Source of the DNA: Salinicoccus halitifaciens
Lineage (GTDB): Bacteria > Bacillota > Bacilli > Staphylococcales > Salinicoccaceae
Direction: 5' to 3'
Assembly (NCBI RefSeq): GCF_021026095.1
Contig: NZ_JAJNCU010000002.1
Location: forward strand, 310,001 to 374,000
DNA length: 64,000 bases
The position numbers were made by a program, and so were the translations under genes. How positions within the stretch are numbered: position 1 is the first letter of the stretch; each line of letters begins with the position of its first letter. The notes under the pieces are model-generated. The model searched no databases and was not told the DNA's origin. It worked only from the letters and a program-made list of their open reading frames with translations. Of the stretch, positions 1,608 through 64,000 are shown in pieces.

Positions 1608-3347
1608 TTAATCCTTGTACTTCTCCAATTCGTGATCGAACTTGCCGCTCAGTGCCTGGATGGCCGTGACGATGATCCAGATCGCGAATACGAAAATGAT
1701 GGCACCGAGCACAAAGAGCAGCATGTTCGAGCTGTCACCGTACCATGCCCATTCGAAGAACACCTGCACGAACATCGCATACAACGTCATGAACAGCAGG
1801 AAGATCATCGGAATCAGGGTGACCAGGTAATTCACACCTTTACGTTTCAGCCACACCGTGATCAGCAGTAAACTGATGCCCGCAAGGAGCTGGTTCGATG
1901 TACCGAACAGCGGCCAGATCAGATATCCGCCGGAACCGAATCCGCTCGGTCCTTCAGGTATGAGGACGAGTGCGGCGGTGGATAGTACCGCGACGGATGT
2001 CGCAACGTGTTTTTTAGTCAGTGCCGGCACCTTATACTCGGAGCCGATTTCCGCGATGATGTAGCGCATCAGGCGGACGGCGGTGTCGAGTGTGGTTGCG
2101 GCGAAGCTCACGACGATGATGGAGACGATCGTCGTCGCCACATGTGCCGGGATGCCGAGGCCGCCTGCAAGGATCGCTGCACCTTCGACGAAGTTGCCGA
2201 GCCCTCCGGCGTTCGCCGCTTCAAAGCTTGAGTAGACGGCTGAAAAGTCTGCCGTACTGCTGAACAGCGTTACGACCGCAATGATTGAAATGAGTGCAAG
2301 AACACCTTCACCGACGGCACCGAAGTAGCCGACGAAGCGTGCATCCGTCTCAAGGTTCAGCTGTTTGGATGACGTACCGGACGACACCAGACCGTGGAAG
2401 CCGGAAATGGCGCCGCACGCGACAGTGATGAACAGCAGCGGCAGCCATGATGTTTCGGCATCCGCGTTCGTCGCCGGCGCATTGATGGTCGGGTTCGTGA
2501 ACAGGAGACCTGCATACAGTATGATCAATCCGACCGACAGCTGATGGGAGTTAATGAAGTCCCTCGGCTGAAGCAGTTTCCATACCGGAAGCGTCGAAGC
2601 GATGTAGACATAGATGAGCAGGATGCCGATCCAGATCATGAAGGCCGTGGAGACCGACCCGAGTCCGAACAGCCCTGCGCCTTCTTCACCGCCCATATAT
2701 GAAACAAGGTCGATCTGCAGCCATGAAACCTCTGCAGTCAAGATTGCGGTTCCGTACATCACCGCAAGGGCGATCAGGGAGGGAATGAGCATTTTGACGT
2801 TGCGCTTATATGCCGCATATCCGATCCAGATCGCCAGCGGTATCTGGATGAAGACCGGCAGGACGCTCGCAGGGTATGTAATGAAGAGGTTTGCGATCAC
2901 CCATGCAAATACGGCGTTGATCATCAATACAAGCGTCAGGATGATGAACAGGAATAAAATCTTCCCGCGTCTGCCGATGAACTTCTCGGCGATCGTCCCG
3001 ATGGACTGGCCTTTATTCCGCACGGACAGTGCAAGCGTACCGAAGTCGTGCACACCCGCGGCAAAAACGGTGCCCAGGATGACCCAGAGGAATGCAGGCA
3101 GCCATCCCCAGTAGACGGCGATCGCAGGACCGAGTATCGGTGCAGCCCCCGCAACGGAAGTGAAGTGGTGGCCCCACAGGACGAATTTGTTCGTCGGGAC
3201 GAAGTCCACACCGTCCTTGTACTTATGCGCCGGGGTGATGAAATCCGGATCCAGCCTGAAGATCCTTTCTGCGATGTACTTCGAGTAATAGCGGTAACCG
3301 AGTGCGAATACCGCAAGGCCGATGACGGCCACTAATATAGCATTCAA
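1608..3347 (-). CDS. cstA: CstA-family peptide/pyruvate transporter
   Basis: A 579-residue carbon-starvation protein A with many membrane spans and the family's N-terminal signature region (PTNKFVLWGHHFTSVAGAAP near residues 52-71). Family members import peptides or pyruvate in E. coli and Corynebacterium; the substrate here is not determined. Length matches the shorter Gram-positive form. Initiation is at TTG: AAGGGGGAG lies 5 nt upstream and no in-frame ATG fits. First gene of a tight operon with the Cys-Cys protein and the ArsA-like ATPase. A 16-bp palindrome about 50 bp upstream may be its operator. Confidence 0.92.
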   Translation of the reverse strand: MNAILVAVIGLAVFALGYRYYSKYIAERIFRLDPDFITPAHKYKDGVDFVPTNKFVLWGHHFTSVAGAAPILGPAIAVYWGWLPAFLWVILGTVFAAGVHDFGTLALSVRNKGQSIGTIAEKFIGRRGKILFLFIILTLVLMINAVFAWVIANLFITYPASVLPVFIQIPLAIWIGYAAYKRNVKMLIPSLIALAVMYGTAILTAEVSWLQIDLVSYMGGEEGAGLFGLGSVSTAFMIWIGILLIYVYIASTLPVWKLLQPRDFINSHQLSVGLIILYAGLLFTNPTINAPATNADAETSWLPLLFITVACGAISGFHGLVSSGTSSKQLNLETDARFVGYFGAVGEGVLALISIIAVVTLFSSTADFSAVYSSFEAANAGGLGNFVEGAAILAGGLGIPAHVATTIVSIIVVSFAATTLDTAVRLMRYIIAEIGSEYKVPALTKKHVATSVAVLSTAALVLIPEGPSGFGSGGYLIWPLFGTSNQLLAGISLLLITVWLKRKGVNYLVTLIPMIFLLFMTLYAMFVQVFFEWAWYGDSSNMLLFVLGAIIFVFAIWIIVTAIQALSGKFDHELEKYKD

Positions 3348-60207: not shown

Positions 60208-61428
60208 ATGTCGAAATTGGAAAGATATGCTTCACTGCTGGCCGAAGTCGGCCTGAATGTCCAGGAAGGCCAGAGGGTCTATATCAGCGCGTCCGTGGAT
60301 GCACTGCCGCTCGTCCGTCTGGTGACTGAAAAGTCTTATCAGAAAGGTGCAAAAGACGTCAAAGTCAATTTGAAGGATGACGTGCTCACGCAGCTCCATG
60401 CACACCACAAAAGCACGGAGGAGTATGCGAAGGTGCCGCAGTGGGCGATCGATGAACGCATGTTTTACTCGGATGAGAAGGCGGCCTTCCTCGCCATCAC
60501 TTCATCTTCACCTGAACTGTTGAAAGGTGTGGATCCCGACAAGCTTAAAAGCATGCAGATCGCATACGGCAATGCTTTCAAGGAATATTCCAACCGCATC
60601 CAGTCCGACCACCACAGCTGGTGCGTCGCAGGATACCCTTCAGCCGGATGGGCGAAGCTTGTATTCCCCGATAAGACGGAGGATGAAGCTGTGGACGCAC
60701 TGCTCGACCTCATCTTCTATACGATGCGGGTCGACCGGGAAGACCCGGTGGAGGCCTGGCAGGAGCTTGATGCCACGCTCCATGAGAAGGTGGACATCCT
60801 GAATGAAAACCATTTCCATGCCCTGAGGTACTCAGGACCGGGTACGGACTTTACAATGGAGCTGCCGGAGAAGCACCTGTGGGCGGGCGCCTCAAGTGAA
60901 AATTCGGACGGTGTGCGCTTCATGGCTAACATGCCGACGGAAGAAGTCTTCACGGCTCCGAAGAAGACCGGGGTCAACGGCTATGTTTCGAACACGAAGC
61001 CACTGAGCTACGGCGGCAACATCATCGACGGCTTCAAATTGACCTTCAAGGACGGCAAGGTCGTCGAATATGAAGCGGAACAGGGCGAAGATGTGCTCAA
61101 AAACCTGCTTGAGACCGATGAGGGGGCGAAGTATCTGGGCGAGGTCGCGCTTGTACCGGACGATTCCCCGATCTCGAACACCGATACATTGTTCTTCAAT
61201 ACGCTGTTCGATGAGAACGCCTCCTGCCATATCGCGCTCGGCAGTGCATACGGCTTCAGCATCGACGGCGGCAAGGACATGTCGCGTGAGGAACTCGCCG
61301 AAGAAGGCCTCAATGATTCGATCACCCATGTCGATTTCATGATCGGGAGTGCAGAACTCGACATATACGGCATCGACCCGGAAGGCAATGAAACGCCGAT
61401 ATTCAAACAGGGCAACTGGGCAATATAA
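60208..61428 (+). CDS. M29-family (thermophilic) aminopeptidase
   Basis: A 406-residue dimeric zinc/cobalt aminopeptidase of the AmpS/PepS family. Metal ligands are expected in MPTEEVFTAPKK (Glu), YLGEVALVPD (Glu), ASCHIALGSAYG (His) and THVDFMIGS (His, Asp), all present. It releases N-terminal residues from peptides in the cytoplasm. AAAGGGG before ATG. Confidence 0.93.
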   Translation: MSKLERYASLLAEVGLNVQEGQRVYISASVDALPLVRLVTEKSYQKGAKDVKVNLKDDVLTQLHAHHKSTEEYAKVPQWAIDERMFYSDEKAAFLAITSSSPELLKGVDPDKLKSMQIAYGNAFKEYSNRIQSDHHSWCVAGYPSAGWAKLVFPDKTEDEAVDALLDLIFYTMRVDREDPVEAWQELDATLHEKVDILNENHFHALRYSGPGTDFTMELPEKHLWAGASSENSDGVRFMANMPTEEVFTAPKKTGVNGYVSNTKPLSYGGNIIDGFKLTFKDGKVVEYEAEQGEDVLKNLLETDEGAKYLGEVALVPDDSPISNTDTLFFNTLFDENASCHIALGSAYGFSIDGGKDMSREELAEEGLNDSITHVDFMIGSAELDIYGIDPEGNETPIFKQGNWAI

Positions 61429-61664: not shown

Positions 61665-61683
61665 TATATACAAATCAAGAGTG

Positions 61684-61714
61684 GAGAGGAGGATTCAGGT
61701 TCTCCTCTCTTTTT
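61684..61714 (+). terminator. Hairpin terminator
   Basis: GAGAGGAGGA pairs with TTCTCCTCTC, then TTTTT. Confidence 0.82.
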
Positions 61715-61744
61715 GGATTGTTTGATTTAAAAGAGGCGGTAGCG

Positions 61745-62527
61745 ATGATCAAAATCGATAAAGTTTCATTGAAGAAGAATGGTTTATATGAGGTTCATCT
61801 CTCCAATGGTGATAAGATGACGGTACACGAGGAATCACTCGTCAGGCACCGTCTGCTCAGCGGGAGGGAACTTACCGGGGAAGAACTGGAAGCAGTCACC
61901 GAAAGCATTCAGTATGACCAGGCCTATGTGGACGCATTGAAATACATCAGCTACAAACTGCGGTCACATCATGAAATCAGGGAATATCTCGGTGAGGAAT
62001 ATGCGCCGTACATCGTCGATGACGTGGTGGGGCGCCTTATGGATGAAAACTACATCAATGATGAAATGTATGCCGAAGCGCTTAAGAACACGATGCTCAA
62101 CACTTCCGACAAAGGGCCGGGGATGCTTGAGAGGGAACTGAAGAAACACCGCATCGATGAGGAGATCATATTCCAAAAGACCGGTGCCTTCAGTGATGCG
62201 GTCGACAGTGAACGCATGAACAAACTGAAAGCCAAAGAGCTGAAAAGATATAAAGGTTCGCAGCGTCATTTTTCGATGAAGCTTCAGGAGAAACTGATGA
62301 CCAAAGGCTACTATAAGGAACATATCGATCTGATCACCTTCGGCGCTGAGTTCGATGAGACCCCTTATTTTGAACGCGATTTTGAAAAGATATACAAAAG
62401 ATACCGGAACAGGCATGAAGGCTACGTGCTGAAGCAGAAGCTGACAGAGGCACTGCTCAGAAAAGGCTATGAGTATGATCTGATCCAGGAGAAATTAGGT
62501 GAGATGACAGATGAAACCATTGGGTAA
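61745..62527 (+). CDS. recX: RecX, modulator of RecA
   Basis: A 260-residue all-helical protein of three-helix RecX repeats (ALKYISYKLRSHHEIREYLG; VVGRLMDENYINDEMYAEAL; LQEKLMTKGYYKEHIDLI; LTEALLRKGYEYDLIQEKLG). It binds RecA filaments and limits or tunes recombination and SOS. ATG 61745 follows GAGGCGG; the longer frame lacks a site. Overlaps yfhH by 17 bases, the B. subtilis recX-yfhH order. Confidence 0.92.
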   Translation: MIKIDKVSLKKNGLYEVHLSNGDKMTVHEESLVRHRLLSGRELTGEELEAVTESIQYDQAYVDALKYISYKLRSHHEIREYLGEEYAPYIVDDVVGRLMDENYINDEMYAEALKNTMLNTSDKGPGMLERELKKHRIDEEIIFQKTGAFSDAVDSERMNKLKAKELKRYKGSQRHFSMKLQEKLMTKGYYKEHIDLITFGAEFDETPYFERDFEKIYKRYRNRHEGYVLKQKLTEALLRKGYEYDLIQEKLGEMTDETIG

Positions 62528-62831
62528 GATGACCAGGCGCGAAATAGAAGCATATATCGCCGAAAAACGTGAAGCGATGAGGAAAGCTGAAATGCTCGGC
62601 GTGGAAAATGAATACAGGGTGAACGAACGGCAGGTGCTGATTGCGGAAAGCTATATGATAGATCTGAGCCAGATAGAAAAAGGGAAGATCTACAAACTCG
62701 TCAGCAATGAAGACCATTATTTCAAAGTGGAATACTTGAAAGGTGTTTTTGCATGGGGCTTTTTCATCGGCGGCACCGAGAAAGAGACGGGTATTCCTGT
62801 AAGCATGCTCCAGCTGAAGCGGAAGGGATAG
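62511..62831 (+). CDS. yfhH: YfhH (DUF1811) family protein
   Basis: A 106-residue protein: a basic helical first half (MTRREIEAYIAEKREAMRKA) and an SH3-like second half (IYKLVSNEDHYFKVEYLKGV). Function unknown; nearly always next to recX in Bacillales. It overlaps recX and is followed after 3 nt by the pseudo-ABC gene, so the three form one transcription unit. Confidence 0.9.
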   Translation: MKPLGKMTRREIEAYIAEKREAMRKAEMLGVENEYRVNERQVLIAESYMIDLSQIEKGKIYKLVSNEDHYFKVEYLKGVFAWGFFIGGTEKETGIPVSMLQLKRKG

Positions 62832-62834
62832 ACT

Positions 62835-64000
62835 ATGCAGGACATAATTCTGCTGAGGGGGCAGAACCTCTCATATGCCAAAGAATCGGGGCACCTCAGG
62901 AAACGGATCCTTTCAAAGGACGAGACCCTCGTGATAAAAGATGTCTCATTCACTTTATACCGCGGAGAAGTCCTTGGGGTGCTCGGTGAATATGAGACAC
63001 TTTATTATTTGAAGGATATGATCACCGGGACGATCAACCCGAAGACGGGGAAGGCGAAGTCGGAAGCGGCCATTGCGGCATTCGACGTGATGGATCACGT
63101 ACATAACCGTCACGCCTCGGTCCGTTTTCTGACCGAGCTGTTCAATGAATATATGAAGCCGGATGAAGTGGCGGCGGCAATGGAAGCTCTGGAGAAGAAA
63201 GTCTTCATGAAGCGCGTATGGAACAGGCGCCTGAATACTTTGACGCGTGCTGAAATCGGTGCACTGCTGGTCGAGGCCGCATGTCATATCGATGCGGATG
63301 TATTCATCTTCTGCAATATGAGCAGCCATTTGAACGAGGCCACCAAAACCCGCTTCAAAGAAGCCGTCTCAAATTTTGAAAAGCAGGATAAAGGCGTCAT
63401 GCTCCTTGAAACGGACATCGGCCTCATCCAGGAATCATCCAACTATTTCATATGGCTGAGCTACGGGCAGAAGCGGTATGAAGGCGGCGTGCAAAAAGGC
63501 GTGAACCGTTACAATGAATATCTTAAAGAGAAGAGCCGGGTCAAAAACACCGATGAAGAGAAAGCGTTCGACCTGGAATGGAAAAGGAATATATCCGAAT
63601 ACGCTCACTATGAACATAACATGCAGCGGCTCAGCAAAAAGCAGACTTCCCTGATCGACAGGCTCAGCATCAGGAGGCTCATCGTCTCCTTCGTCCTCCT
63701 CTTCATCATCATGGCCGCCTCCACGGTGATTTTCATGGACATCAATTTCACTGGAGCGGACCAGACTGCCGAACAGCAGGCGGTGCCTGCACTGGAGGAG
63801 GATGCTGAAAGTTTCGCCTATGGTTTCGTCTCGGCGGAAGCACTGGAACTCGGCGGAGAGGCGGTGCCGTACATGACGATGGTGGATGTCGTAAGGACCG
63901 GGGAAGGAAGTTATACGGTGCTCTTCAATGATGCAGAGCATGAAGTGCCGGAAGATGACATCATTTATTTCAATCCGGCGAGCCTTTACACCGAAACGAC
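62835..64000 (+). CDS. TagH-like ABC protein with degenerate ATPase motifs (partial, runs off the window)
   Basis: At least 388 residues, continuing beyond the window. Residues 1-230 align in outline with an ABC ATPase of the TagH/teichoic-acid type (TLVIKDVSFTLYRGEVLGVL at strands 2-3), but Walker A reads GVLGEYETLYY (from residue 48) without GKS/T, the signature helix reads TLTRAEIGALLVEA without SGG, and Walker B reads ADVFIFCNMSS without the Asp-Glu pair. A membrane helix at about 283-303 (LIVSFVLLFIIMAASTVIFM) leads to an acidic outer domain (KINFTGADQ region onward). TagH also has a helix and an outer domain. The frame is clean, so this is not an obvious pseudogene. It follows yfhH by 3 nt. 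Confidence 0.75.
   Translation, partial: MQDIILLRGQNLSYAKESGHLRKRILSKDETLVIKDVSFTLYRGEVLGVLGEYETLYYLKDMITGTINPKTGKAKSEAAIAAFDVMDHVHNRHASVRFLTELFNEYMKPDEVAAAMEALEKKVFMKRVWNRRLNTLTRAEIGALLVEAACHIDADVFIFCNMSSHLNEATKTRFKEAVSNFEKQDKGVMLLETDIGLIQESSNYFIWLSYGQKRYEGGVQKGVNRYNEYLKEKSRVKNTDEEKAFDLEWKRNISEYAHYEHNMQRLSKKQTSLIDRLSIRRLIVSFVLLFIIMAASTVIFMDINFTGADQTAEQQAVPALEEDAESFAYGFVSAEALELGGEAVPYMTMVDVVRTGEGSYTVLFNDAEHEVPEDDIIYFNPASLYTET

Follow-up and report, generated by a model that had tools for sequence, protein, structure and literature searches.

The window, by which we mean the whole 64,000-nucleotide stretch of Salinicoccus halitifaciens DNA analysed here, ends in a gene for a TagH-like protein (pseudo-TagH below) in which the ATPase motifs appear to be replaced. 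Is this a transporter subunit on its way to loss, or one retained for a role that needs no ATP hydrolysis, and if so, what might that role be?

Gene neighbourhood and distribution

The pseudo-TagH frame is open up to the window edge, with 388 codons inside the window, and on the contig it reaches a stop at 64322, giving a gene of 495 codons (L002:2836-4323). The frame, described as intact in the first-pass annotation, is unbroken across the window's family, none of the 33 genomes having a stop codon in it, and the protein is 92% identical to its S. kekensis orthologue (taxon names other than Salinicoccus are those that we infer). The coupling to recX and yfhH that had also been described agrees with the coordinates (Table 1), the yfhH stop lying 4 nt from the pseudo-TagH start. 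The end of pseudo-TagH shares 14 nt with the next gene (L002:4310-5107), which encodes a membrane protein of 265 residues, the permease considered below, and a second terminator-like hairpin lies directly past that gene (L002:5114-5140). Because terminator-like hairpins (both of them consensus matches only) stand before recX and just after the permease gene, the arrangement suggests that recX, yfhH, pseudo-TagH and the permease gene are a single transcription unit.

Table 1. Features of the recX-yfhH-pseudo-TagH region in window coordinates (aa, position in the pseudo-TagH protein).
Feature	Position	Strand	Evidence and remarks
Terminator-like hairpin, upstream of recX	61683..61710	+	L002:1684-1711; 12-bp stem and T tail; consensus match only; probable upstream border of the transcription unit
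recX	61718..62527	+	RecX_HTH1/2/3 Pfam matches; listed start TTG; in-frame ATG also at 61745
yfhH-like gene (DUF1811)	62511..62831	+	PF08838, E=1e-31; 17-nt overlap with recX
TagH-like pseudo-NBD, TM segment and outer domain	62835..64000, on contig to 64322 (495 aa)	+	ORF, Pfam, motif alignment, HHalign
Former Walker A, GVLGEYETLYY, aa 48-58	62976..63008	+	no GxxxxGK[ST]; 1 residue shorter than canonical
Q-loop-equivalent segment, aa 80-90	63072..63104	+	invariant D84, D87, H88
Former ABC signature, aa 136-140, LTRAE (canonical YSSGM)	63240..63254	+	R138 invariant in family
Former Walker B, aa 156-161, VFIFCN	63300..63317	+	C and N in place of the catalytic D and E
Former H-switch, aa 190-194, LLETD (canonical FVSH[SN])	63402..63416	+	E192 invariant in family
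Membrane helix, aa ~282-303	63678..63743	+	hydropathy peak 2.8 over 19 residues at aa 282
Outer domain, aa 307-495, TagH_SH3-like then TagH_C	63753..64000, past window end	+	Pfam, profile, Foldseek

Each of the 33 genomes from the window's family has one copy of the pair of pseudo-TagH and permease. Across Staphylococcales, 139 of 152 good genomes likewise have one, and one family (15 genomes) is without it. In the other two families, the order recX-yfhH-[pair]-yfhP-mutY-DUF402 held at all 20 loci fetched, recX being syntenic in 20/20 of these order genomes. At the inspected loci of the window's family the permease gene adjoins that of the pseudo-NBD, as it does, by BLAST, at 19 of the 20 loci from the other two families; the twentieth has a 278-aa membrane ORF at the same position. 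Of 146 genera sampled (399 Bacilli genomes), 6 had the TagH_C domain, and all six belong to Staphylococcales.

An orthologue of Sav1866-type multidrug ABC exporters with intact motifs lies a few genes downstream of the pair (L002:7875-9611). Upstream of recX, a Staphylococcus genome has a monofunctional transglycosylase gene (sgtB-like, L079:2888-3697), the place of which is taken in the Salinicoccus window by an aminopeptidase-like gene (60208-61428).

The TagH-like domain and its former ATP site

TagH/TarH is the best profile homologue of the nucleotide-binding domain (NBD). In HHalign, an order-wide alignment of pseudo-TagH matched 19 TarH-type proteins over aa 1-246 with 99.7% probability (E=1e-25), the PDB matches of the family profile included TarH 6jbh (6jbh_A, E=6e-13) and TagH 7dd0 and 9cfl, and TagH was the best NCBIfam match of the Staphylococcaceae orthologues. 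The pseudo-TagH protein itself falls below the curated cut-off of the TagH equivalog NF010066 (26.9 bits, cut-off 320) and below the gathering threshold of ABC_tran PF00005 (13.6 bits, threshold 25), the latter as expected because the NBD is a motif-less relic; the Staphylococcaceae orthologues score above the PF00005 threshold (43-48 bits). Together with a TagH_C match in the outer domain (PF22096, E=6e-29), the TarH alignment upholds the TagH-like identity first proposed for this protein. Matches of the NBD to RLI/ABCE1 (NCBIfam E=4e-11; PDB 3ozx) were set aside: the RLI match covers only ~130 residues, the Staphylococcaceae orthologues match TagH best, and the alignment of the wider family profile with TarH runs from end to end. 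An AlphaFold2 model of the full protein, built as the S. kekensis orthologue with a 6-sequence alignment, had a mean pLDDT of 46 and an unusable NBD, which is poorly modelled because the alignment holds only six close sequences. An ABC fold is thus predicted for aa 1-246 by profile evidence only.

We located the motif positions by aligning the protein to 12 canonical TarH sequences from Staphylococcales. All four motifs are canonical in 12/12 of these (GxNGSGKS, YSSGM, hhhxDEA and FVSH) and all four are replaced in pseudo-TagH (G-EYETLY, LTRAE, VFIFCNM and LLET). The segments on which the first-pass annotation had based its claim of lost Walker A, signature and Walker B motifs are present as quoted (GVLGEYETLYY, aa 48-58; LNTLTRAEIGALLVEA, aa 133-148; ADVFIFCNMSS, aa 154-164), and they align to these very motifs of the canonical proteins; the switch histidine, which the annotation did not mention, is also gone. 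Pseudo-TagH differs from TagH/TarH (PDB 6jbh, 9cfl, 7dd0) in lacking Walker A and B, the signature and the switch histidine, and in its gene lying at recX-yfhH, apart from the locus for polymer export in the genome, whereas it resembles them in the profile of aa 1-246 and in having a TagG-type permease gene as partner.

Motif loss was graded across the order. Among 40 inspected orthologues from three families (out of 139), the signature and the switch histidine were absent from all 40, and the Walker B aspartate was kept in three, which belong to the Macrococcus-like clade. Walker A (GxxxxGK[ST]) was kept in five, all of them Macrococcus-like sequences from another, distant family, the placement of this clade in the tree not being firm (long branches); elsewhere staphylococcal sequences had GxxxxSK and two further ones GxxxxGKE, and Walker A was found in none of 22 members of the window's family. 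The replacements are conserved in relatives, and no close relative within the family had intact Walker motifs. Such a gradient (intact, partial, gone) within one order would provide a natural series from ATPase to pseudo-ATPase.

With neither the Walker motifs nor the signature in place, no composite ATP site could form in an NBD dimer or in a heterodimer with TarH. It follows from the sequence that pseudo-TagH would have no ATP power stroke, and we infer that it would not hydrolyse ATP in vitro. ATP might still be bound as a structural or regulatory ligand. The intact Walker A of the Macrococcus-like orthologues and the Walker lysine kept in 17 of the 18 orthologues outside the window's family are consistent with such binding, which we nevertheless consider unlikely, since the lysine position is Leu in 22/22 members of the window's family and the loop is shorter.

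The former ATP site is nonetheless constrained. NBD dN/dS was 0.05-0.17 (Nei-Gojobori; pairs not saturated at synonymous sites), and the ATP-site segments were above the NBD average in conservation (top-residue fraction 0.69-0.76 vs 0.63). R138, in the signature, and E192, beside the switch, are new invariants at former motif positions in the family. A pseudogene or a sequencing error is ruled out by the frame, which is intact in all relatives, and by the dN/dS values. By these measures pseudo-TagH is a pseudo-ATPase under selection and no decaying gene, in line with the earlier description of a TagH-type pseudo-ATPase with a clean frame.

The outer domain and the identity of the 5bnd protein

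A strong hydrophobic segment (aa 282-300) matches the membrane helix proposed earlier, and the region beyond it is recognizable as a known domain. TagH_C (PF22096) matches aa 390-493 with E=6e-29 (101 bits, gathering cut-off 27), preceded by a weak match to TagH_SH3-like (PF22269, aa 325-381). The outer domain was the sole well-modelled region of the AlphaFold2 prediction (pLDDT ~75-86 in its best parts); by Foldseek, the modelled domain matched PDB 5bnd with E=2e-12 (TM 0.79 to target), and the family profile matched 5bnd with E=6e-31.

The entry 5bnd bears the title 'C-terminal domain of TagH', is presumably from S. epidermidis, and is reportedly the subject of Ko et al. 2016 in Proteins. 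Its 179 residues are 100% identical to aa 328-506 of the pseudo-TagH orthologue in a Staphylococcus genome (G098). The true TarH of the same genome, of 264 aa, has its match in chain 9cfl_B of the S. aureus TarGH cryo-EM structure and stops behind the NBD, without an outer domain. Because the 5bnd sequence is identical to the orthologue and absent from the true TarH, the domain comes from the recX-yfhH locus protein and not from the flippase ATPase; on this sequence match, 'TagH' is a misnomer for the 5bnd protein. Pseudo-TagH thus has the same outer domain (PF22269, PF22096) as 5bnd, which was deposited as part of TagH. The statement that no protein of this type had been described was accordingly too strong, as the outer domain of an orthologue has been solved and Pfam holds both TagH_SH3-like and TagH_C.

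The outer domain had been called acidic, and its net charge is indeed -35 (aa 307-495). Across the window's family the charge ranges from -15 to -41, and in Staphylococcaceae it is mostly near zero. This acidity may reflect salt adaptation. Given that the charge varies strongly between lineages, it is doubtful that the domain binds one polymer by a fixed electrostatic mode.

A degenerate permease partner and possible roles

The picture of a lone pseudo-ATPase acting as a regulator held for the pseudo-ATPase and failed for the lone, since the protein is co-encoded with a degenerate TagG-like permease. The permease matches TarG in HHalign (94.9%), and TarG 6jbh_C was the only PDB match of its family profile (E=3e-6); its score against ABC2_membrane PF01061 is just below the gathering threshold (22.1 bits, threshold 26.9), and its structural model was unusable (pLDDT 43). 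By alignment, it has lost the YLGxxW motif of TarG as well as R175, D176 and R186, three residues shared by all 23 canonical TarG-type permeases compared from the same order. In the structure of TarGH from A. herbarius, R175 and R186 form part of a positively charged line around the turn of the substrate tunnel (PMC7078476). Permease and NBD have each lost conserved residues, so that each half of the complex is missing canonical features. The permease has an invariant LNPFYY motif in its family, and its dN/dS against S. kekensis is 0.07.

We propose, with a probability of about 0.55, that pseudo-TagH is an ATP-independent envelope sensor or scaffold derived from TagGH and paired with the downstream permease. 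A regulator or scaffold role, as first suggested, is a reasonable inference. Pseudo-TagH would be the NBD-derived subunit of a TagGH-descended ABC-2-type complex no longer driven by ATP hydrolysis, probably assembled with the permease as in TarGH (2:2). The pseudo-NBD would lie beneath the permease, with one helix bringing the SH3-like/TagH_C domain to the outer membrane face, where it may bind a cell-wall polymer or a partner. The permease would then serve as membrane anchor and relay and the pseudo-NBD as cytoplasmic docking surface, the two relaying a state to, or anchoring, a cytoplasmic partner via the re-conserved former ATP site. In evolutionary terms, we put at even odds that an entire ABC-2 transporter, permease as well as ATPase, became an ATP-independent polymer-sensing or scaffolding complex early in the evolution of Staphylococcales, one kept across the order except in one family, and annotated and partly crystallised as 'TagH'. 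If so, staphylococci have an envelope complex that is conserved and has gone unstudied, resembles the teichoic-acid exporter and is unable to pump with ATP, and it would be a clear bacterial example of a complete pseudo-transporter maintained by selection. The naming error would also be mended, and the role in teichoic-acid export proposed for the 5bnd domain would have to be re-read.

Alternatively, the permease could be a passive conduit that moves lipid or polymer down a gradient without ATP, with the pseudo-NBD as a structural plug or gate. The strong constraint on a complete multi-helix permease and its invariant LNPFYY would suit such a function, but the loss of YLGxxW and of the invariant R/D/R residues of TarG makes it improbable, and we know of no precedent for an ABC-2 permease working without ATP.

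Another possibility is that pseudo-TagH is a degenerate subunit that pairs with an active NBD, from TarH or another protein, and tunes wall-polymer export. Pairs of this kind are familiar among ABC transporters: in heterodimeric exporters such as TAP, CFTR and LmrCD, one ATP site is degenerate, and a composite site combines the Walker motifs of one NBD with the signature of the other. Partners are also at hand, real TarGH being present in other genomes of the family and order and TarH-type ATPases in most genomes of the order. Pseudo-TagH shares with those exporters degenerate ATPase motifs conserved by selection; theirs keep one consensus site, whereas pseudo-TagH, without its Walker and signature sets, would leave both sites dead and could form no composite site. 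It also has its own dedicated permease. Moreover, the pair is kept in genomes of its own genus without a TarH above the family cut-off, where the only protein matching TarH is a tandem-NBD one of Wzt type; this speaks against a strict need for TarH as partner. Pairing with an active NBD is thus quite unlikely.

A normal tagGH pair was looked for elsewhere in the window's genome, where no protein reached the TagH cut-off and a Wzm/tandem-Wzt system was all that came up. Its 562-residue protein, in which two NBDs with intact Walker sites stand in tandem, is the best TagH match and is encoded next to a Wzm-type permease. This exporter (G000:C4:70775-73284) is of the same ABC-2 polysaccharide-export class as the pseudo-pair and differs from it in that both of its NBDs have Walker motifs and its permease has YLGxxW and R/D/R. 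The surrounding surface-polymer locus (G000:C4:64000-82000, L099) encodes two nucleotide-sugar dehydrogenase-like proteins, glycosyltransferases and ATP-grasp-like proteins in addition to the Wzm permease and the 562-aa tandem NBD.

That the pair is simply a decaying TagGH copy, as the graded loss from intact Walker A through GxxxxSK or GKE to none might suggest, is scarcely credible and refuted as far as sequence can do so, given the stop-free frames, the low NBD dN/dS, the order-wide synteny and the new invariant residues at former motif positions.

From our own reading of locus-tag order, SAOUHSC_02008 is very probably the S. aureus permease orthologue, and SAUSA300_1852 very probably that of pseudo-TagH; unlike our reading of the pair, these are annotated as an ordinary ABC transporter. 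SAOUHSC_02008 has been described as an uncharacterised, loosely TagG-related protein, and its S29G point mutation gave no growth, teichoic-acid or secretion phenotype (PMC11841065). SAUSA300_1852 is annotated as an ABC transporter ATP-binding protein, and a transposon mutant exists (PMC8826898), on account of which the complex seems expendable under laboratory conditions. Both mutants weigh against the sensor or scaffold proposal. No functional study of the locus came up when open papers were searched by locus tag.

The canonical TarH proteins of the window's family (L110-L117, 445-459 aa) have ~180 extra C-terminal residues, which in our own reading resemble GW/SH3-type repeats (no Pfam match) and, having no clear membrane helix, would be cytoplasmic. 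In one Staphylococcaceae genome (G111), a single TarH gene is flanked by two different TarG-type permease genes (L102:319-1119, 2339-3139).
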